Source: Aerococcus mictus
GTDB lineage: Bacteria > Bacillota > Bacilli > Lactobacillales > Aerococcaceae
Reading direction: 5' to 3'
NCBI RefSeq assembly: GCF_003286595.3
Contig: NZ_CP132985.1
Location: forward strand, 186,001 to 250,000
DNA: 64,000 nt
The position numbers were made by a program, and so were the translations under genes. The notes beneath the pieces are model-generated. The model was given only the letters and a program-made list of their open reading frames with translations, did no database searches and was not told the origin of the DNA. Shown piece by piece: positions 38,039-49,738 of the stretch. Numbering within the stretch: the stretch's first letter is position 1; each line of letters starts with the position of its first letter.

Positions 38039-38884
38039 ATGAAATTTATCTCATGGAATATTGATTCTTTAAATGCTGCCTTAACCAGTGATTCCAACCG
38101 GGCTCAATTGTCACGGGAAGTCTTACGGACAATTGACCAATACGATCCTGATATTATCGCCATTCAAGAAACCAAGCTATCCGCCAAAGGGCCTAGCAAA
38201 AAGCACCAAGAGGCCTTGGCCGAATGGTTCCCTGACTATAATAACGCCTGGGTCAGTTCAGTCGAACCAGCCCGCAAATCCTATGCTGGAAACATGGTTC
38301 TCTATAAAAACGATCTTGAACCGACTATTTCCTATCCTAAGATCGGGGCGCCAGAACCCATGGATAGCGAAGGCCGGATTATTACCCTTGATTTTGGGAG
38401 CTTTTACTTTACCCAAGTTTATACGCCTAATGCCGGGAATGGCTTGAAACGTTTAGAAGAACGTCAAGTTTGGGATGAAAAATATGCCCAATACCTCAGT
38501 CAACTGGACCAAGAGAAGCCTCTTATTGCGACGGGAGACTTTAATGTGGCCCATAAGGAAATTGACCTGGCTCACCCAGAAAACAACCATAAGTCAGCCG
38601 GCTTTACGGATGAAGAACGGTCCGGTTTTACCAAGCTCTTGGATTGTGGTTTTACTGATACCTTCCGTCATATTCATGGGGATGTAGAAGGCGTCTATAG
38701 CTGGTGGGCACAACGGGTCAAGACCAGCAAAATCAATAACTCCGGCTGGAGAATTGACTATTTCTTGGTCAGTGACCGTATCGCTGATGCCGTTAAAAAG
38801 TCGGAAATGATTGATTCCGGCACCCGCCAAGACCATACCCCAATTTATCTAGAGCTTTCTGATGAAATCAAAGCAGGGGATTAG
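38039..38884 (+). CDS. exoA: exodeoxyribonuclease III / AP endonuclease
   Basis: A 281-residue EEP-fold nuclease. Motifs: FISWNIDSLNAA, IIAIQETKLS (metal Glu), YTPNAGNGLKRLEER, ATGDFNVAHKEIDL (Asp and Asn), SGFTKLLDCGFTDTFRH, SWWAQR, WRIDYFLVS and the terminal QDHTPIYL (His). It cuts DNA at abasic sites in base excision repair. GGAGCC site before the ATG. The stop is 50 nt upstream of the crRNA-like mini-array. Confidence 0.93.
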   Translation: MKFISWNIDSLNAALTSDSNRAQLSREVLRTIDQYDPDIIAIQETKLSAKGPSKKHQEALAEWFPDYNNAWVSSVEPARKSYAGNMVLYKNDLEPTISYPKIGAPEPMDSEGRIITLDFGSFYFTQVYTPNAGNGLKRLEERQVWDEKYAQYLSQLDQEKPLIATGDFNVAHKEIDLAHPENNHKSAGFTDEERSGFTKLLDCGFTDTFRHIHGDVEGVYSWWAQRVKTSKINNSGWRIDYFLVSDRIADAVKKSEMIDSGTRQDHTPIYLELSDEIKAGD

Positions 38885-38934
38885 CTTGTGGCTTTTTAGT
38901 AAGCTAACAGCATAGTTAGCTATGTCCTAGATTA

Positions 38935-39049
38935 TATATTCCCGCACTTGCGGGGGTGATCCTATTGTCATTTTGATAAGATGGAGCGCATATATTATTT
39001 CCCGCATTTGCGGGGGAAACTTCTTGATTTTTTATCAAGAAGTTTTTTG
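38935..39049 (+). ncRNA. CreR-like single-spacer crRNA gene upstream of cas3
   Basis: Two degenerate repeats 61 nt apart. Repeat A (38935-38962) keeps the hairpin CCCGCACTTGCGGG and the exact 5'-handle source GGGTGATCC, but its first six bases have diverged. Repeat B (38996-39023) keeps only the hairpin CCCGCATTTGCGGG and loses the handle. Thus exactly the parts needed for one mature crRNA are retained. A terminator follows. The spacer (38964-38995) matches minus-strand positions 39117-39102 in the cas3 promoter at spacer positions 1-5, 7-11 and 13-16, mismatching only at 6 and 12. The PAM is AAC. I could not identify its promoter. Confidence 0.75.
39017..39049 (+). terminator. terminator of the crRNA-like gene
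   Basis: Perfect 12-bp stem (39017-39028 with 39034-39045) and TTTTTT-type tail; the 5' arm overlaps the end of repeat B. Confidence 0.8.
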
Positions 39050-39076
39050 TATAAATTAAAATTATATGGAAAACGG

Positions 39077-39105
39077 TTGTAATTAATCTTTTGATCATTT
39101 ATTAT
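39077..39105 (+). promoter_or_regulatory. cas operon promoter
   Basis: TTGTAA (39077-39082) and TATTAT (39100-39105) with 17-nt spacing, predicting a start near 39112, about 50 nt before the cas3 ATG. Confidence 0.6.
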
Positions 39106-39117
39106 AAAAATAACAAT
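39086..39117 (-). promoter_or_regulatory. partial protospacer for the CreR-like guide, over the cas promoter
   Basis: The minus strand from 39117 reads ATTGTTATTTTTATAA; the guide reads ATTGTCATTTTGATAA. The preceding bases on that strand (39120-39118) are AAC. The 32-nt footprint covers the -10 box and most of the spacer region, so Cascade binding would block RNA polymerase. Identity ends after position 16 apart from scattered bases, which should allow binding but not Cas3 cleavage. Confidence 0.7.
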
Positions 39118-39162
39118 GTTTTAAAAATAAAAAGTGAGAAAGGGGGTGATCGTATCGATCAG

Positions 39163-41913
39163 ATGATTTCTGCTTTATGGGGCAAAAAAAGCGAAAAATT
39201 TGGACAGTTCTATTGGCTTCCTTTAATACAACATTTAAAGGATACTTATGGCGTTGCTGGAGCACTTTGGGAACATTGGATGAGCCCAGGACAAAAAGAA
39301 TTTATCCAAATAGCTTCCCATACTGATAGTGACGGTGCTAAAAAACTCTATCAATACCTTGCTGCAATCCATGATGGGGGCAAGGCTAGTCCCGCTTTTC
39401 AGGCTATGCCTAACTTTTCCCATCATTCAGAAGATCTTGAAAAGACACTGTTAGAAAAGTTAGAGAGAGCTGGTTTTGTTGGTATAAGTAAGGTACAGTT
39501 ATCCGATCGTCAAAAAAGCCACCATAGCTTAGCAGGGCAAGCGCTTCTGATAGATGATCAAATCAATAAGGATATCGCTTCTATTGTTGGAGCCCATCAC
39601 GGCAAGCCGTTGGATTCTAATCGAGACTACAAACATCAGTTAAAATCCTATGGTAATAATTATTTTCAAAGTGACAATCCAGATGAGCCTATTTACCAAA
39701 CTTGGCAAACAACACAAGAAGCTATTTTTAACTGGGCTTTAAATTTATCAGGTTATACCCAGGTGGAGGAACTTCCTGAGATTAGTCAAGCAGGGCAAGT
39801 TTTGTTAGCAGGAGCCTTAATTATGGCTGACTGGATTGCTAGTAATGAACATTATTTTCCTTTAATTCCAATTGATCAAGCATCCATTTTAGACTCGCAA
39901 AGTCGACTTGAAAATGGATTTACACAGTGGAAGAAGACTGATCTCTGGCAACCTCATGGAGCTATTGATATTAACAATTTTTATTATGATCGTTTTAAGT
40001 TTCTACCGCGAGATATGCAGCGAGTATTTTCAGAAACCATTGAAGCGACTGATCAACCAGGAATCTTCATTTTAGAAGCACCTATGGGGTTAGGCAAGAC
40101 AGAAGCTGCCCTTGCAGGGGCAGAGCAATTAGCCTTTAAAACTGGGCGTTCTGGTGTGTACTTTGGCTTGCCTACTCAAGCGACTTCAAATGGTATTTTC
40201 CCTCGTATAAAAGACTGGTTAGAAAGAATCGAAGAACTAAATGGCGACAAAGCGTCCCTGCGCTTAGCTCACGGAAAGGCAGCCCTTAATGATGATTTTG
40301 CCAAATTAGCTCATCAAGTTGACCCTGATGGCGAAGAAGAGAGTACGATTATTGCCAATGAATGGTTTGCTGGTAGAAAAACAACTGCTTTAGATGATTT
40401 TGTCGTCGGAACTGTCGATCAGTTTCTTTTATTGGCACTTAAACAAAAACATTTAATGCTTCGTCACTTGGGGTTTAGTAAGAAAGTCGTTATTATCGAC
40501 GAAGTTCACTCGTACGACGCTTACATGAGTACTTATTTATATCGAGCTCTTGAATGGATGGGGGCTTACCAGGTACCTGTTATTATTTTATCAGCTACTT
40601 TACCAGCGGATAGACGACTAAAAATGATACAGTCCTACTTAAAAGGAAGAAATAAACAAGTAAAGAAAATTGATTTATCTGACCAATTAGAAACGATTGA
40701 TTATCCTTTAATCACTTATACTGATGGAGATGCTATCCATCAAGAGACGCATTTTGATAAAAATAAGATTGAGCATAAGACTGTAAAGATTCATAAATTA
40801 CCTGTTATGGAACAAATGGACGCTCTTATAGAATTAGTGGAAGGTTTGTTACAATCAGGAGGAGTCATTGGTATTATCGTGAATACTGTCAAACGGGCTC
40901 AAGCTCTAGCAAACGCTCTTTCTGAAAGAATAGGGGAAGAGTTCGTTGAATTGCTCCATTCTAATTTTATTGCGACTGACCGCGCTGATAAAGAAAATCA
41001 GCTTCTTCAGCAAATTGGTAAAGACAAAAAACGGCCAGAAAGAAAAGTAATTATTGGTACTCAAGTGATCGAGCAATCTTTAGATATCGATTTTGATGTA
41101 TTAATTAGTGATTTAGCCCCTATGGATTTACTAATTCAAAGGGTTGGCCGCATGCACCGTCATGATATTGACCGGCCTAGTAAACATCATGAGCCCATTT
41201 TCTATGTTTTAGGAATAAGTGAATCTTTAGATTTTGAAAAAGGATCAGAAGCGGTGTATGGTGGCTACCTTTTAGCTAGGACGCAATATTTCTTGCCGAA
41301 TAAATTATATATACCAAGCGATATTTCCTCATTGGTGCAAGCTGTTTATAGTAATCAAACCATAGATTTAAATCATGACATACAAGTAAAATATGATGAA
41401 ATGGTTTTAAAACATGAGCGCTATCTTAAAAGTAAAAAAGCCAAGGCAAAAGGTTATTTACTAGCGTCACCTGATCATAGTGGAAGAAAATCTTTAGTTG
41501 GGTGGTTAAAAAGTCCTTCTACTGAAGAGGGAGAAGAAAAAGCTTATGCACAAGTCCGCGATAGCCAAGAGACTATTGAGGTGATTGCACTTAAGAAAGT
41601 TGGAAGTGGTTATGGTACTTTTGCTGAACAGGTGGATCTTTCTGAAAGAATCGATGATCCGCTTGTAGCCAAAGAAATTGCTAAAGAAACACTGCGTTTA
41701 CCGTATCAATTAAGTGTTTTATATAACAATATAATTGATCAAAGTATTAATTTCCTAGAAAGCTATAATCTTAAGTATTTACCAGACTGGCAAGAACAAA
41801 GTTGGCTAAAAGGCAGCCTAGGTATTATATTTGATGAAAATAATGAATTTGTAATTAACGATTATAAATTAATTTATGATCGTAAATATGGTTTGATTTG
41901 TGAAAGGATGTGA
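39163..41913 (+). CDS. cas3: CRISPR-associated nuclease-helicase Cas3 (type I-E)
   Basis: A 916-residue HD nuclease fused to a superfamily 2 helicase that degrades DNA marked by Cascade. HD motif HDGGKASPAF (His70-Asp71), later HHSLAGQALL and GAHHGKP; Walker A MGLGKTEAAL (about 307), DEVH box IIDEVHSYDA (about 445), SATLP, and motif VI QRVGRMHRH. The frame is open back to 39091, but that stretch is the promoter and leader. ATG 39163 is chosen, although AAGGGGGTGAT lies about 15 nt away, longer than usual. First gene of the cas operon; the cse1 start overlaps its end. Confidence 0.95.
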   Translation: MISALWGKKSEKFGQFYWLPLIQHLKDTYGVAGALWEHWMSPGQKEFIQIASHTDSDGAKKLYQYLAAIHDGGKASPAFQAMPNFSHHSEDLEKTLLEKLERAGFVGISKVQLSDRQKSHHSLAGQALLIDDQINKDIASIVGAHHGKPLDSNRDYKHQLKSYGNNYFQSDNPDEPIYQTWQTTQEAIFNWALNLSGYTQVEELPEISQAGQVLLAGALIMADWIASNEHYFPLIPIDQASILDSQSRLENGFTQWKKTDLWQPHGAIDINNFYYDRFKFLPRDMQRVFSETIEATDQPGIFILEAPMGLGKTEAALAGAEQLAFKTGRSGVYFGLPTQATSNGIFPRIKDWLERIEELNGDKASLRLAHGKAALNDDFAKLAHQVDPDGEEESTIIANEWFAGRKTTALDDFVVGTVDQFLLLALKQKHLMLRHLGFSKKVVIIDEVHSYDAYMSTYLYRALEWMGAYQVPVIILSATLPADRRLKMIQSYLKGRNKQVKKIDLSDQLETIDYPLITYTDGDAIHQETHFDKNKIEHKTVKIHKLPVMEQMDALIELVEGLLQSGGVIGIIVNTVKRAQALANALSERIGEEFVELLHSNFIATDRADKENQLLQQIGKDKKRPERKVIIGTQVIEQSLDIDFDVLISDLAPMDLLIQRVGRMHRHDIDRPSKHHEPIFYVLGISESLDFEKGSEAVYGGYLLARTQYFLPNKLYIPSDISSLVQAVYSNQTIDLNHDIQVKYDEMVLKHERYLKSKKAKAKGYLLASPDHSGRKSLVGWLKSPSTEEGEEKAYAQVRDSQETIEVIALKKVGSGYGTFAEQVDLSERIDDPLVAKEIAKETLRLPYQLSVLYNNIIDQSINFLESYNLKYLPDWQEQSWLKGSLGIIFDENNEFVINDYKLIYDRKYGLICERM

Positions 41914-41917
41914 CATA

Positions 41918-43648
41918 GTGGCTAAATTTAATTTAATTGACGAGCCTTGGATAGCAGTCATTAATAAAGAAAGCGGAGATAATTTACTTCTTTCTTTACG
42001 CGATGTCTTCGAAAAAGCACCAACGTTAAGCCAGTTAGCTGGAGATAGCAAAACTCAGGATTTTGCGGTTTTACGCTTATTACTTGCTATTTTACAAACA
42101 GTATATTCACGAATGGATGCTAGTGGACAAGCCTATGACCAAGTTGATTTAACGGAACGCTATCAACAAATAAAAGATGTTGATGAGTTCGATGAAGATG
42201 ATTATGTTCAGAGTTTAGAAGAAACTTGGCAGTTAATCTGGGAAGAGGGAGAATTCTCTGAAGCGGTTAATGATTATTTAGAGGCATGGTACGATCGATT
42301 TTATCTTTTTGATGATCAATATCCATTTTTTCAGGTGACTCAAGCTGATATTGCAGAAGATAAGATTAGTAAGTCTAAAGCAAGTAGCATACAAGCTAAA
42401 AATATTAACCGCACTATATCAGAGAGTGGAAATAAAATAGCTTTATTCTCTCCTAGCTATGGAGAAAATAAGGAACTGTTGTGGGCTGATCAAGTAGCTC
42501 GTTGGTTGTTAACTTTTCAGGGCTATTCAGGTTTGTCAGATAAAGTTATATTTGGAAAAGAAAAATATAAAGCTTCTAAGGGCTGGTTATTTGACATTGG
42601 AGGACTTTATTTAGGGGGGAGAAATTTATTTGAAACTTTGTGGTTGAACACTGTCCTAGTACATCCACGTGAAGAGTATCGCTTAAATAGACAAAAACCT
42701 TGTTGGGAATTTACTGGGTCAGAAATCATTGATCATTATTTTTCAGGTGATAATTGTGATAATCTGGCTGAGCTCTATTGCGCTTGGAGTCGAGCGATTT
42801 ATATTGATCCGGAAAGCGATTTAAATAAACCTTTCTCTTTTGAAGTGGTTAAGCTACCGGAAATTAATCACGTAGATAATTTCTTAGAACCTATGACAGT
42901 CTGGCGTAAAAATGCTAGTGGTGAAAATAAAGGAAGGTATACTCCCAGGAAGCATGTTGCCGGACAATCGTTATGGCGGTCTTTTGGTTTAGTCCTTCCA
43001 TCGAATTCTAAAAAGGAAGAGAATGAGGGGGAAAGTCATCGTCCAGAAATAATAACTTGGCTTGATTATCTAGATGATATTACCGATTCTTTGTTGGATG
43101 ATTATCCTCTAACTATACATGCTATAAGTATGCAAGATGATGGGAATGCTACTTCCTGGGTGCCTACCGATGAAATTTACGATGAACTAAAGATTGATGA
43201 CCAAGTAGCTGCTGATGTCAGTTCGGCAGGTTGGATTCCGCGGATCAATGATACTGTAACAGAAACTAAAGAAGCTATTGAACGCACTTTTCGCTATTTT
43301 TTGATGGAAATAAAAGATATACGAAACTTAGGAAGTAATGATTTTGTTGACCAAAAAATTGAGGAGTTGTATTTCTTAATCGATTTACCCTTTAGAGACT
43401 GGTTAATTGAGATAAAACCAGAAGATGCTAAAGATCAGAAGATCATTCAGTGGCGTCAAGTTTTGCGAAAGATTGTAATGAATAAAATTAATCACATGGT
43501 TCAAGAGGCTGGCCCACGGGATTATAAAGGAAAGGTTTATGAAGCTAAAGACGGCCAGACTTATTTAAAAAACATCGCTACGGCCTATAATACTGTAACC
43601 TATTTTATTAATAAAAAATTAAGTGTAAGGGAGGATAGACATGACTGA
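41918..43648 (+). CDS. cse1: Cascade large subunit Cse1 (Cas8e)
   Basis: A 576-residue protein with the conserved N-terminus FNLIDEPWIAV and the block LLRLLLAILQ. Cse1 reads the PAM and recruits Cas3. Start GTG 41918, after AAGGATGTG, 4 nt past the cas3 stop; the frame itself begins earlier at 41900. It overlaps cse2 by 8 nt. Length is slightly above the usual 500-560. Confidence 0.93.
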   Translation: MAKFNLIDEPWIAVINKESGDNLLLSLRDVFEKAPTLSQLAGDSKTQDFAVLRLLLAILQTVYSRMDASGQAYDQVDLTERYQQIKDVDEFDEDDYVQSLEETWQLIWEEGEFSEAVNDYLEAWYDRFYLFDDQYPFFQVTQADIAEDKISKSKASSIQAKNINRTISESGNKIALFSPSYGENKELLWADQVARWLLTFQGYSGLSDKVIFGKEKYKASKGWLFDIGGLYLGGRNLFETLWLNTVLVHPREEYRLNRQKPCWEFTGSEIIDHYFSGDNCDNLAELYCAWSRAIYIDPESDLNKPFSFEVVKLPEINHVDNFLEPMTVWRKNASGENKGRYTPRKHVAGQSLWRSFGLVLPSNSKKEENEGESHRPEIITWLDYLDDITDSLLDDYPLTIHAISMQDDGNATSWVPTDEIYDELKIDDQVAADVSSAGWIPRINDTVTETKEAIERTFRYFLMEIKDIRNLGSNDFVDQKIEELYFLIDLPFRDWLIEIKPEDAKDQKIIQWRQVLRKIVMNKINHMVQEAGPRDYKGKVYEAKDGQTYLKNIATAYNTVTYFINKKLSVREDRHD

Positions 43649-44252
43649 GACAAACAAAAAGCAAGTATCTGTTTACCAGGTAACAGCTAGAATGATTAAT
43701 GATTTGGCCCGAAATGATGGGACAACTATAAGTAAAGCTCACCTAGCTAGATTACGCCAGTCAATTGGTAAACCTTTAAGTCAGACGGTTGATATTTGGC
43801 CATTACTATTTCAATATCTACCAGAAGAATTTCTAAGCAAGAGTGGGAAAACAACTTTAGAGCAAAAAGCGATATTAACGACATTGCAACTTTATGCTTT
43901 ATACCAGCAAGGAAGTCAAAATGCAGAGGTTAAACTTAACAAACAAGAAAACACACCCAATATTGGTGCTTCACTCGCTTACTTGCGAAGAGAAAAGGAT
44001 CAACGAGTTGCTAGCGATCGCCGTTTTAACACTTTAATTACGGCAACAGATTTTACAGAATTAATCTATTATTTACGCCAAATGGTTAAATTATTAAAAG
44101 GAAAATCGCAGGGGCAAGTTCTTATTAACTATCCACGTTTGGCTGAAGATCTATATTGGTATTTGAGAGGATACGAAGAAAACGTGCGTATTCGTTGGGC
44201 ACAGAGTTACTATATGAACAGAGAAGAAGGAGTAAATAGTGATGAAGAATAA
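43641..44252 (+). CDS. cse2: Cascade small subunit Cse2 (CasB)
   Basis: A 203-residue, mainly helical basic protein with ARNDGTTISKAHLARLRQSIGKPL and the C-terminal FTELIYYLRQMVKLLK block of CasB. It stabilises the displaced strand in the R-loop. Overlaps cse1 by 8 nt and cas7 by 11 nt, so translation is coupled. Confidence 0.92.
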   Translation: MTETNKKQVSVYQVTARMINDLARNDGTTISKAHLARLRQSIGKPLSQTVDIWPLLFQYLPEEFLSKSGKTTLEQKAILTTLQLYALYQQGSQNAEVKLNKQENTPNIGASLAYLRREKDQRVASDRRFNTLITATDFTELIYYLRQMVKLLKGKSQGQVLINYPRLAEDLYWYLRGYEENVRIRWAQSYYMNREEGVNSDEE

Positions 44253-45366
44253 TGAGAGAATTTTTGTTGATATCCATGCCATTCAAACCGTTCCGCCTTC
44301 TAATATCAACAGGGACGATACGGGATCCCCAAAGACAGCCCAATACGGTGGGGTTAGACGGGCACGCGTTAGCTCTCAGTCTTGGAAACGGGCGATGAGA
44401 GAATATTTTTATGAAAAGAGTGTCCAAAGTAATGTAGGGGTACGGACGTTACAAATTGTTCGTTATTTAGCAGATAAAATTCAAATTTTGGATGATACTC
44501 TGGATGATGAATCAGCAATGAAATTAGCTGATGAAACGATCAATAAGGCTGGAATTAAAACTGCAGCGCCTAAAGGATCTAAAGATAAGAATCATAAACA
44601 AGCTAAAGCGCTATTCTTCTTGGGAGATACTCAGGCAAACGAATTGGCTCAAGCGGCTGTTGATGGAGTGACTGATAAAAAGGCGCTTCAAAATATCTTG
44701 CGAGATAATCCAGCAATTGATATTGCTCTTTTTGGGCGCATGGTAGCCGATGATCCGTCTCTTAATGAGGATGCTTCTTCCCAAGTAGCTCATGCTATTT
44801 CTACTCATGCGGTTCGGCCAGAATTTGATTTCTATACTGCTGTCGATGATTTAGCACCAGAAGATAATGCTGGAGCCGGAATGCTAGGTACAGTTGAATA
44901 TAACTCGTCAACACTCTATCGCTATGCTAATGTAGCTGTTCATGAGTTGAGCCGACAACTCAATAATCCTCAAGCTACCTTGAATACTTTAAAACTATTT
45001 ATCGAATCTTTTACTAAATCGATGCCGACTGGGAAAATCAATACTTTTGCGAATCAAACCTTACCTCAGGCACTCTTAGTAACGGTTCGAGATGATCGCC
45101 CAGTGAACCTTGTTTCAGCATTTGAAAAACCGGTTAAAACACAGGATGGTTATGTTGAAAAATCTGTTGAAAACTTATTCAGCGAATATCATAAAGTTCA
45201 AAAAATAATGGATCAACCGTTAAAAACCTTCTATCTTGTTTTAAATGATCAGAACATTGATTGTGATGAAGGAAAGCAAGAAGATAGTCTCTCCCAATTA
45301 TTGAATGATTTTGATGAATTTGTTGGACCACTTATTGAGAAAGTACAGGATCAAGGTGATGCATAG
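44242..45366 (+). CDS. cas7: Cascade backbone subunit Cas7 (Cse4/CasC)
   Basis: A 374-residue protein with FVDIHAIQTVPPSNINRDDTG and RRARVSSQSWKRAMRE at the N-terminus, the standard Cas7e opening, and AHAISTHAVRPEFDFYTAVDD later. Six copies coat the crRNA and force the base flips every sixth position. ATG 44242 has AAGGAG 9 nt upstream; GTG 44239 is the alternative. Confidence 0.95.
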   Translation: MKNNERIFVDIHAIQTVPPSNINRDDTGSPKTAQYGGVRRARVSSQSWKRAMREYFYEKSVQSNVGVRTLQIVRYLADKIQILDDTLDDESAMKLADETINKAGIKTAAPKGSKDKNHKQAKALFFLGDTQANELAQAAVDGVTDKKALQNILRDNPAIDIALFGRMVADDPSLNEDASSQVAHAISTHAVRPEFDFYTAVDDLAPEDNAGAGMLGTVEYNSSTLYRYANVAVHELSRQLNNPQATLNTLKLFIESFTKSMPTGKINTFANQTLPQALLVTVRDDRPVNLVSAFEKPVKTQDGYVEKSVENLFSEYHKVQKIMDQPLKTFYLVLNDQNIDCDEGKQEDSLSQLLNDFDEFVGPLIEKVQDQGDA

Positions 45367-46076
45367 TGAGAACCTTAGTTTTGAAGTTTGCTGGTCCCCT
45401 CCAAGCTTGGGGTACGAACTCTCATTTTGAAACTAGACATACTGATCTCTATCCATCGAAAAGTGCCGTCATTGGATTAATTAGTGCTTGTTTAGGCTAT
45501 CAACGTGACGATGATAAACATATCCAAGCTTTAAATGCCTTAAATTTTGCTGTTCGAATTGATCAACAAGGTAATTTACTTCGCGATTACCATACGGCAA
45601 AGAAGTACAAGAATAGTGGAAAATTAGAGCGAACTTATGTGACGAATAGATATTATTTAGAAGATGCTATTTTTTTAGTGGCAATTGGTTCAGAAGATGA
45701 AGAATTGATGAAAAAAATTGAGGCAGGGCTAAAATCTCCCTATTATCAACCCTTTATGGGACGTCGTGCCCTACCTTTGAACGTTGATTTTATTTTTCAA
45801 TCGACAGACAAGGACGTGTTGACGATTCTAAAGGAAATTACTTGGCAAGCGGCTTCTTGGTATAAAAAGAACCATAGTAAACGACTATCTATCTATGCTG
45901 ACGCGTATTTACAAGCTGATAGTCCAACACATCAGCGTAGAGATAGAGTTAATTCCTTTTCGCAAAAAGAACGTAAATTTTCCTATCGAAGTGAATGTCG
46001 TATCGACACCATAGTTAAAGATTCTAGTGGGGTTGGGGATCATGATGCCTTTTCTGTTTTGAAGGAGGTTGATTAA
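45366..46076 (+). CDS. cas5: Cascade subunit Cas5e (CasD)
   Basis: A 236-residue RAMP protein with LVLKFAGPLQAWGTNSHFE and PSKSAVIGLISACLGY. It caps the crRNA 5' handle. The GTG start shares a base with the cas7 TAG stop (TAGTG), giving tight coupling. Confidence 0.93.
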   Translation: MRTLVLKFAGPLQAWGTNSHFETRHTDLYPSKSAVIGLISACLGYQRDDDKHIQALNALNFAVRIDQQGNLLRDYHTAKKYKNSGKLERTYVTNRYYLEDAIFLVAIGSEDEELMKKIEAGLKSPYYQPFMGRRALPLNVDFIFQSTDKDVLTILKEITWQAASWYKKNHSKRLSIYADAYLQADSPTHQRRDRVNSFSQKERKFSYRSECRIDTIVKDSSGVGDHDAFSVLKEVD

Positions 46077-46078
46077 TT

Positions 46079-46714
46079 GTGTATATGTCTCGCGTCGCTA
46101 TTGATACTAAAAATCCAATGAAAATGAGATCTTTAAATCATCTTGGAGCTTATCATAACTGGGTGGAAAGTAGTTTTCCTGAGGAATTTGATGCTAATAT
46201 CCGTACACGAAAATTGTGGCGGATTGATAAAGTAGATGGTCAAGAATATTTACTAATAGTGAGTCCTAGTAAACCGAATCGAGAAGCATTGGAGAAATAT
46301 GGTATTACTGGCAGTGCCCAAGTGGCTGATTATTCTTCTTTTCTAAATAACTTGGAAGAGGGGATGGAAGCGCAATTTCGAGTACGGTTAAACCCTGTAG
46401 TTTCTGAGTCCCAACCAGGAAAAAAGAGAGGTCGTGTTGTCCCTCTATATGGAGATGAGAAACAATTGAACTTTCTGCTAGATAGAGACAAAAAGAATGG
46501 TTTTCAAATTAATCCAGTGACACTATGTATTGTAGAAAAAGGTTTTGAACCAGTAAAAAAGCGAAATGAAGCTACTATAAAGCTTAGTTCTGCCACCTAT
46601 GAAGGTGTATTAAAAATTACAGATCTTAATCAATTTAAGCAAACTTTGAAGGAAGGTTTTGGTCGGAAGAAGGCTTATGGTTTTGGTTTAATGACAATTA
46701 TTCCTATGAGGTGA
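46079..46714 (+). CDS. cas6e: crRNA endoribonuclease Cas6e (CasE)
   Basis: A 211-residue RAMP endonuclease that cuts at the base of the repeat hairpin. N-terminal MYMSRVAID, catalytic-region His in LGAYHNWVESSFP, and the C-terminal glycine-rich loop EGFGRKKAYGFGLMTI. GTG start 10 nt after AAGGAGG; the alternative ATG at 46085 would lose the canonical N-terminus. Substrates here include repeats with a full 6-bp stem (array 3, mini-array) and one with a broken pair (array 1). Confidence 0.95.
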   Translation: MYMSRVAIDTKNPMKMRSLNHLGAYHNWVESSFPEEFDANIRTRKLWRIDKVDGQEYLLIVSPSKPNREALEKYGITGSAQVADYSSFLNNLEEGMEAQFRVRLNPVVSESQPGKKRGRVVPLYGDEKQLNFLLDRDKKNGFQINPVTLCIVEKGFEPVKKRNEATIKLSSATYEGVLKITDLNQFKQTLKEGFGRKKAYGFGLMTIIPMR

Positions 46715-46718
46715 GTGA

Positions 46719-47669
<951 letters not shown>

Positions 47670-48590
47670 ATGCCATTAACAGTAATTACTATGAAGAACT
47701 GCCCACCGTCTTTGCGTGGGGACCTTAGTAAATGGATGCAAGAAATTGCCACTGGTGTTTATGTTGGTAATTTTAATAGCCGTGTTCGTGAAGCCCTCTG
47801 GGAACGCGTGAGTCAAAATGTGGGGGTAGGAGAAGCTACTATGTCCTATGCTTACCGCAATGAAATAGGATACCAATTTGAAACAATTAATGCTAAACGC
47901 CAAGTAGTGGATTATGAAGGAATTCCTCTAGTCTTGCTTCCTAATACTTTGGTAGATAATAAAACGAATAAGAAACATGGCTTTAGTAAGGCTGCTAAGC
48001 AACGGCAGGCTAGGAAGTATTCGGCTTCTTCAAAAAATAGACGAAATGAAAAAGAACAGTCGTCATACATAATTGTTGATATTGAAACATCTGGGCTAGA
48101 TCCAATGAAAGATTCGATTATCGAAGTTGGAGCACTTGCTATAAAAAATGGAGAAATTGTTAAAGAATTTGAATGTCTTATAAATTATGAGGGGATTTTA
48201 TCTAATGAAATCATTTCGTTAACAGGCATTGATGATCAACTATTGAAAAAAGAAGGCCAGGACTTAGAAAAGGTTCTGCAAGATTTTAAAACCTTTATTG
48301 GTGAGGAAGATCTTGTTGGCTATAATATCTCCTTTGATATAAAATTTATTAATTATTATTTAAAGAAGCTAAATCTGCCAAAATTAAATAATAAAAGTGT
48401 TGATTTAATGAATTTCGTAAAAAAAGAAAAATTGTTTTTACCTAATTATAAATTAGAATCAGCCTTGTCAGCTTATGATATTGACGAAGAAGTTCCTCAT
48501 AGAGCTTTAGGTGATGTGCATTTGATCTATCGGTTATCGTTGAAAGTAAATAAATTTATAAAATTTATGAATCGAAAAACGCATAATTAA
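47670..48590 (+). CDS. cas2: Cas2 fused to a DEDDh (DnaQ-like) exonuclease
   Basis: A 306-residue fusion. Residues about 1-95 are Cas2e (LTVITMKNCPPSLRGDLSKWMQEI, NVGVGEATMSYAYRNEIGYQ). A basic linker with KKHGFSKAAKQRQARK follows, then a DEDDh exonuclease with all ligands: IIVDIETSGLD, GYNISFDIKFI and PHRALGDVHLIY. Similar fusions in streptococcal I-E systems trim prespacers. Its stop lies only 14 nt before the first repeat of array 3, so the array leader must overlap this coding sequence. Confidence 0.93.
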   Translation: MPLTVITMKNCPPSLRGDLSKWMQEIATGVYVGNFNSRVREALWERVSQNVGVGEATMSYAYRNEIGYQFETINAKRQVVDYEGIPLVLLPNTLVDNKTNKKHGFSKAAKQRQARKYSASSKNRRNEKEQSSYIIVDIETSGLDPMKDSIIEVGALAIKNGEIVKEFECLINYEGILSNEIISLTGIDDQLLKKEGQDLEKVLQDFKTFIGEEDLVGYNISFDIKFINYYLKKLNLPKLNNKSVDLMNFVKKEKLFLPNYKLESALSAYDIDEEVPHRALGDVHLIYRLSLKVNKFIKFMNRKTHN

Positions 48591-48604: not shown

Positions 48605-49669
48605 CTTTTTCCCGCACATGCGGGGGTGATCCTATATTTGTTCACAACCAGCGTCCTGAAAAGGGCTTTTTCCCGCACATGCGGGGGTGATCCTAAGCCC
48701 CTCTGAGAGCTTGTCAAAGCCTTTCTCTTTTTCCCGCACATGCGGGGGTGATCCAGCGACTTTGAAAACAATTAAAGAACGATCTGACTTTTTCCCGCAC
48801 ATGCGGGGGTGATCCTAAGGCCTTGTGGACAAGAGAAGAATCAGTTAGCTTTTTCCCGCACATGCGGGGGTGATCCTAAAGACCACTAGGGCAATTCCTA
48901 CCCTTTGCCCTTTTTCCCGCACATGCGGGGGTGATCCTCAATCTCTTGCATGATCGTATAGGTAGTCCAACTTTTTCCCGCACATGCGGGGGTGATCCCA
49001 AAAGCGGCAATAAATTTCTCCCAATCATCTACTTTTTCCCGCACATGCGGGGGTGATCCTGACAGGATCGCTGCCAAAGCTTCACAAAATACCTTTTTCC
49101 CGCACATGCGGGGGTGATCCTGACAGGATCGCTGCCAAAGCTTCACAAAATACCTTTTTCCCGCACATGCGGGGGTGATCCTTCATCAAAAACTCTCTCT
49201 GACTTTTAAATTTTCTTTTTCCCGCACATGCGGGGGTGATCCTTTTGTTAACCTCAACAAAATTGGGCTTAGGCACTTTTTCCCGCACATGCGGGGGTGA
49301 TCCTACTGACTCTATGCACGACTGGCTTGAAAGAAACTTTTTCCCGCACATGCGGGGGTGATCCTGAAAAAGGACTCCGGCGTTAATAACATTTTTACTT
49401 TTTCCCGCACATGCGGGGGTGATCCCTACCCTCACTAAGGATAGCCCACAAGCCTACACTTTTTCCCGCACATGCGGGGGTGATCCTTTTTAGCGATCCA
49501 GTTAGCCCCTCCAATGATCCTTTTTCCCGCACATGCGGGGGTGATCCTAAAAGGAAAAATCACCTTGTTATAACTAATAACTTTTTCCCGCACATGCGGG
49601 GGTGATCCTGGGCCGGCAGTACAGGATCACTATTGATTTCTCTTTTTCCCGCACATGCGGGTGAAAATT
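48605..49669 (+). CRISPR. CRISPR array 3 (main), type I-E, 18 repeats and 17 spacers
   Basis: Repeats of 28 nt start at 48605 and recur every 61 nt to 49642, with hairpin core CCCGCACATGCGGG. All are alike except the last, which is degenerate (GCGGGTGAAAATT), placing the leader on the left next to cas2. Spacers 8 (49060-49092) and 9 (49121-49153) are identical. Fourteen of 17 spacers begin with T, so the true repeat is probably 29 nt with a PAM-derived last base. Short minus-strand reading frames across the array are artefacts of the repeat. Confidence 0.98.
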
Positions 49670-49738
49670 AATGTGATTGAGTTACTGTGCAATTTATTAT
49701 TTGAATCATCGATACAAATGCTATCGTCCTTTTTGATG

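Follow-up and report, generated by a model that had tools for sequence, protein, structure and literature searches.

A two-repeat mini-CRISPR located between xth and cas3 (38935-39022) in the window, i.e. the whole 64-kb stretch of Aerococcus mictus DNA analysed here, is very probably the gene of a type I-E cas-regulating RNA (creR), as judged from sequence comparisons. It ends in a terminator-like hairpin, and its guide matches the promoter region of the adjacent cas3 gene. An earlier note on this DNA had proposed that such an RNA makes Cascade repress its own cas operon; this interpretation is strongly supported by the present comparisons and is the best reading of the locus.

The type I-E locus and its mini-CRISPR

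The window harbors a type I-E system composed of cas3, cse1, cse2, cas7, cas5, cas6, cas1 and a cas2-DnaQ fusion, followed by a CRISPR array. The operon behind the mini-CRISPR carries a complete set of Cascade genes (NCBIfam models, above cut-off).

39163-41913, + strand: cas3 (ORF list and NCBIfam)
41900-46714, + strand: Cascade genes cse1, cse2, cas7, cas5 and cas6 (NCBIfam models above cut-off)
46719-48590, + strand: cas1, and cas2 fused to a DnaQ-like exonuclease domain (NCBIfam)
48605-49670, + strand: CRISPR array, 17 identical repeats with a period of 61, plus a degenerate last repeat

The window Cas3 shares 90% and 88% identity with two Aerococcus urinae proteins. The cas2 gene with the fused DnaQ-like exonuclease domain lies at 47670-48590; such a fusion is a feature of streptococcal type I-E systems. 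In the array, repeats of 28 nt alternate with spacers of 33 nt, and two neighboring spacers (49060-49092 and 49121-49153) are identical, reflecting a repeat-spacer duplication. Compared with phages, the array spacers gave no convincing protospacer (one weak match, E 0.3). Within the literature collection searched, no paper joins Aerococcus, CRISPR and type I-E.

The intergenic gap between xth and cas3 measures 278 nt and holds the mini-CRISPR, whose parts are the following.

38904-38933, + strand: candidate creR promoter CTAACA-18-TAGATT, 8/12 consensus bases (by eye)
38935-38962, + strand: repeat A, degenerate type I-E repeat whose stem and handle GTGATCC (38956-38962) are intact, 4/28 bases off the array repeat
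38963-38994, + strand: spacer (guide), 32 nt against 33 in the array; position 1 is 38964 and the paired block is 38964-38979
38995-39022, + strand: repeat B, stem retained and handle gone, 9/28 bases off the array repeat
39016-39046, + strand: terminator-like hairpin of 13 bp, its 3' arm rich in T and continued by two further T (39047-39048) (predicted fold)

Two degenerate repeats with one spacer had been described directly before cas3, the first with a hairpin and the exact handle and the second reduced to a hairpin running into a terminator, and this anatomy is borne out in each respect. The terminator-like hairpin comes from the predicted fold and is absent from the output of a simple terminator scan. 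The mini-CRISPR stretch folds far better than its own shuffles (z -6.85). The fold of lowest energy has repeats A and B paired with each other instead of folded into two separate hairpins; since Cas6 would need the latter, the predicted fold counts against the creR reading. The creR promoter candidate is weak, because the consensus scan did not find it; both of its hexamers are unchanged in the close relative described below (alignment). We also considered the mini-CRISPR as a canonical CRISPR array and rejected this reading, its repeats being 4 and 9 of 28 bases off and its spacer having been kept while the array turned over. Rfam gave no family overlapping the mini-CRISPR at the gathering threshold, only weak matches (E 0.34-3.5) taken as chance.

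Match between the guide and the cas3 promoter

Read from 38964, the guide is ATTGTCATTTTGATAA; the minus strand from 39117, following AAC, is ATTGTTATTTTTATAA. Guide and minus strand (39117 to 39102) are identical at positions 1-5, 7-11 and 13-16 and differ only at positions 6 and 12, so that the match and AAC PAM claimed in the earlier note are exact. A register starting at the first spacer base (38963) was rejected, reaching 12/15 versus 14/15 from 38964.

39077-39105, + strand: cas3 promoter candidate TTGTAA-17-TATTAT (consensus scan, 9/12 consensus bases)
39086-39117, - strand: 32-nt protospacer with the matched block at 39102-39117 (guide scoring)
39118-39120, - strand: PAM 5'-AAC (AAT in the close relative L085)

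AA-type PAMs are reported for streptococcal type I-E systems, as the earlier note also states. With an AA PAM, none of 3000 dinucleotide shuffles of 39021-39165 reached all 14 scored positions, and one of 3000 did so when no PAM was required; for a wider region the result was 0/3000 both with the AA PAM and without any PAM requirement. Across the 64 kb, the cas3 promoter target has no equal among AA-flanked sites, the others scoring at most 11; in the same cas3 leader the 17 array spacers reach 6-9.

The cas3 candidate is the sole consensus promoter in 38850-39200; about 1.4 such sites are expected there by chance, and the call is therefore plausible rather than proven. This chance-level hit, like the lack of a creR promoter in the scan output, counts against the creR reading. 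The target had been placed over the TATTAT box, and this holds for all six bases of the -10 box when the 32-nt protospacer is considered and for four of them within the 16-nt match.

This promoter also bears on a first alternative, a CreTA-type addiction module in which the RNA would repress a hidden toxin with an overlapping promoter and not cas expression. The anatomy equals that of creA in the available text of PMC9458426, and RNA toxins of that kind are small. However, cas3 is the gene that follows the matched promoter candidate, the list of ORFs of at least 80 aa showing no separate one there, and we consider such a module very unlikely.

Conservation in a close relative

A contig search of genomes with the window Cas3 alone yielded no relative. 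Among 76 genomes from the family of an Aerococcaceae locus, one close relative was found (locus L085 of genome G019), with a Cas3 90% identical to that of the window. A relative keeping the mini-array and losing the match was the outcome that the earlier note had named as adverse to its proposal; this single close relative instead keeps both the guide and the matched target, while promoter, leader and array diverge. Its spacer is identical (33/33 columns counted), 25/28 bases of repeat A are kept, and the matched target block is kept at 15/16 positions, versus 9/16 in the remaining protospacer and 28/45 columns in the leader beyond the PAM (14 end-gap columns excluded). The pairing of the terminator stem is retained via changes on both sides (alignment, by eye); the value of 23/35 columns for the terminator in this alignment arises from a poor local alignment of the second arm. 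The pattern AA-N plus 12 positions occurs once in the 2.0-Mb genome of L085, at the cas3 promoter, and four times in nine other genomes together, hence about 0.4 occurrences are expected by chance per 2-Mb genome.

Two features of this comparison count against the creR reading. The conserved block shares bases with a -10 box whose conservation would be expected in any case, though the block extends to the PAM, 12 nt beyond the box. Moreover, the unpaired half of the guide (38980-38994) is unchanged in L085 and as conserved as the seed, although the protospacer half facing it is kept at 9/16, and the CreR model leaves this conservation unexplained.

The same data allow two further alternatives to be weighed. 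The mini-CRISPR could be the decayed, functionless end of an old CRISPR array with an AT-rich spacer matching an AT-rich promoter by chance: both repeats are degenerate, match and promoter are indeed AT-rich, and the single narrow-leader shuffle reaching the score without a PAM fits such an origin. We give this very little credence, as the spacer is unchanged while the array spacers have fully turned over (17 in the window and 12 in L085, with none in common), the terminator stem shows paired changes (by eye), and the same pairing arises from other guides in other lineages (see below). Ordinary immunity to a phage or plasmid would account for the presence of the array's handle and of almost the array's spacer length, but appears extremely unlikely: the spacer stands alone at the cas3 leader with no turnover, searches of phages and plasmids gave nothing convincing (best E 7 and 0.5, with less than 80% of the query covered throughout), and a viral contig collection contained no identical stretch of 20 bases (exact matches only; the host's phages may be missing from collections). 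A plasmid search with the whole xth-cas3 gap returned one record, which matches xth only.

Survey of mini-CRISPRs upstream of cas3

A second contig search, based on an alignment of 16 Cas3 proteins, retained the 80 best-scoring of 414 loci. The survey counts 151 loci in which the Cas3 match reaches 300 bits or more, and 119 after removal of 3 with short upstream sequence and of 29 duplicates. A handle-bearing repeat lies at most 400 nt upstream of cas3 in 32 of these 119 loci and in none of the other 87 (loose hairpin filter). Six of the 32, with at least three handle-bearing repeats, are arrays and were set aside, which leaves 26 mini-CRISPR loci with 27 guides, L152 having two. In addition, L028 has all 12 positions paired beside AAC and was left out of the count for failing the hairpin filter, and the target of L053 was missed when the repeat was masked and found without masking.

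In 16 of the 26 mini-CRISPR loci the guide pairs at positions 1-5, 7-11 and 13-14 within its own leader (up to 560 nt), beside AAC in nine and AAT in seven. Two other loci reach 11/12, two 10/12 and six 7-8/12. The 87 loci without a handle-bearing repeat and the 10 of 26 below 12/12 count against the creR reading. Scoring covered positions 1-5, 7-11 and 13-14 and the AA of the PAM, and left positions 6, 12, 15-32 and the third PAM base free; the full match at the scored positions is therefore by selection, since these positions defined the score. Against 118 foreign leaders, 12 of the 16 guides have no full match and four have one, i.e. four full matches in 16 x 118 guide-leader combinations, which are explained by the sibling pairs window/L085 and L088/L091, each sharing one guide. 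Among the best matches, 17 have 10/10 at positions 1-5 and 7-11, and 16 of these pair at 13-14 too.

At the unscored positions of 14 independent guides, position 6 is matched in 6 and position 12 in 2, with about 4 expected; both are thus apparently unconstrained. The earlier note had named them as the bases flipped out by Cascade. Position 15 is matched in 10 of the guides, 16 in 6 and 17 in 2, and at positions 18-32 the matches number 70/210 (0.33 versus 0.31 expected), so that pairing has dropped to the background level at about position 17. The targets of the 16 perfect loci divide evenly, 8 lying upstream of the mini-CRISPR and 8 between mini-CRISPR and cas3.

The earlier note had called for an alignment across relatives to see whether guide and promoter covary. 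The guides differ by lineage, yet pair at the same positions with their own local leader, and guide and cas promoter thus appear to evolve together. The survey also makes barely credible a Cascade-independent antisense RNA pairing with the cas3 mRNA leader: the window guide is complementary to the cas3 sense strand, but few matched bases would be in the mRNA if transcription starts about 7 nt past the -10 box, 10 of the 16 perfect loci have their match on the + strand and 6 on the - strand, and AAC or AAT always adjoins the target (AA required in scoring, third base free).

Some features of the PAM and of the array could be compared. The first base of the array spacers is T or C in 16/17 cases in the window (48605-49670) and in 12/12 in the relative (L105:11571-12391), and the third PAM base of the 16 perfect CreRs is likewise C or T in 16/16. 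This suggests an AAY PAM whose last base may enter with the spacer. In the 16 perfect CreRs, the handle is succeeded by T in 8, A in 5 and G in 3, a base that does not follow the third PAM base.

A possible common register in several circuit layouts

It is conceivable, at slightly less than an even chance in our estimation, that one strict register governs type I-E CreRs in many Bacillota and in some Actinomycetota (AAC or AAT PAM; pairs at positions 1-5, 7-11 and 13-14, no constraint at 6 and 12, and an end of pairing by about 17), within several circuit layouts. The first of these proposed layouts is that of the window, with creR, a terminator-like hairpin and a separate cas3 promoter as the target. 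In the second, the target lies upstream of creR, and a single repressed promoter would serve creR, cas3 and sometimes a small HTH gene. For example, L088, L090 and L091 carry an ORF of 55-63 aa with an HTH_3 domain between the guide target and creR, and a single repressed promoter may there drive the regulator, creR and the cas genes.

In the third layout (Gardnerella, Arcanobacterium) the target lies in the cas3 3' end, and the RNA would control how much Cascade is made separately from Cas3. No guide target was found in the cas3 leader of Gardnerella vaginalis (L038, L040) and Arcanobacterium (L051); these three loci have 10/10 seed positions and AAC in the cas3 3' end, 66-68 nt before cse1. 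Positions 13-14 are not both paired at the cas3 3'-end targets. The guides of five Gardnerella-family genomes (L189-L193) and of L051 match the cas3 3' end with an AAC PAM, 66-68 nt before cse1 where measured, and their variable seed position 4 is the same in guide and target in 6/6 (three G, three A). A seventh locus examined for such targeting, L194, has no handle. From these sequences, targeting of the cas3 3' end may set Cascade apart from Cas3. The Cas3 of L051 (G835:C4:50784-53587) matches in two pieces joining near residue 785 and may be frameshifted.

Proposed mechanism

From a short transcript carrying the two degenerate repeats, Cas6 would release a crRNA-like RNA whose 5' handle is normal. 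Within Cascade, this creR RNA would use the AAC PAM to engage the cas3 promoter, with pairs at positions 1-5, 7-11 and 13-16. Cascade would then cover the -10 box and the start region, keeping RNA polymerase out and restricting expression of the operon from cas3 to cas2. The pairing stops near position 16, which is probably too short for Cas3 cutting, and promoter repression without self-cleavage would therefore be expected. In the available text of PMC5904413, E. coli Cascade already binds with a PAM and 5 seed pairs and flips out every sixth base, and interference requires extensive pairing; on these thresholds, 12-14 pairs would fit binding without cutting. Repression would ease when Cascade is scarce, loaded with ordinary crRNAs or blocked by an anti-CRISPR, following the published CreR model, as far as the accessible parts of its sources (PMC12737573, PMC12948488) describe it.

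The locus would offer a compact example, from a Gram-positive lineage, of an immune system held in check by its own guide RNA through a directly testable 16-base target. The comparison yields a rule (which positions are paired, and where pairing ends) usable for finding such RNAs in other genomes, and hints at where evolution sets the line between Cascade binding and Cas3 cutting.

Comparison with known systems

CreR was reportedly described as a cas-regulating RNA by Liu et al. 2023 in Cell Host Microbe. Cas9 autoregulation by a natural single guide and the scaRNA are likewise said to be cases where a CRISPR-derived RNA makes the effector a repressor via a shortened match. The locus would resemble these Cas9 systems in that respect and differs in that they are Cas9-based, with no Cascade mini-CRISPR, and in that scaRNA targets lipoprotein genes.

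With CreTA (CreA RNA and CreT toxin; PMC9458426), as characterised in the available text of that study, the mini-CRISPR shares two degenerate repeats, one spacer, a partial promoter match and Cascade-mediated repression, the last predicted here from sequence. CreA, however, represses a toxin gene, whereas the target in the window is the cas3 promoter; the first repeat is the more diverged one in CreA and the second in the window (9 versus 4 changes).

CreR itself provides the closest parallel. According to the accessible portions of PMC12737573 and PMC12948488, it is a crRNA-like RNA that forms a complex with Cascade; this complex represses the cas promoter, and the repression yields when crRNAs or anti-CRISPRs draw Cascade off. 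CreRs are reported in types I-B, I-E and V-A, those of type I-E repressing cas promoters via partial complementarity (PMC13131331, text available in part), which agrees with the earlier note's statement that CreRs with partial matches to cas promoters had been described. The window locus would share with CreR a crRNA-like RNA from a mini-CRISPR beside cas genes, a partial cas-promoter match and Cascade as the repressor; as with CreR, no linked toxin is seen (here among ORFs of at least 80 aa). The type I-E CreR is already a known kind, to which the window locus would add a further member, in what may be a new host lineage.
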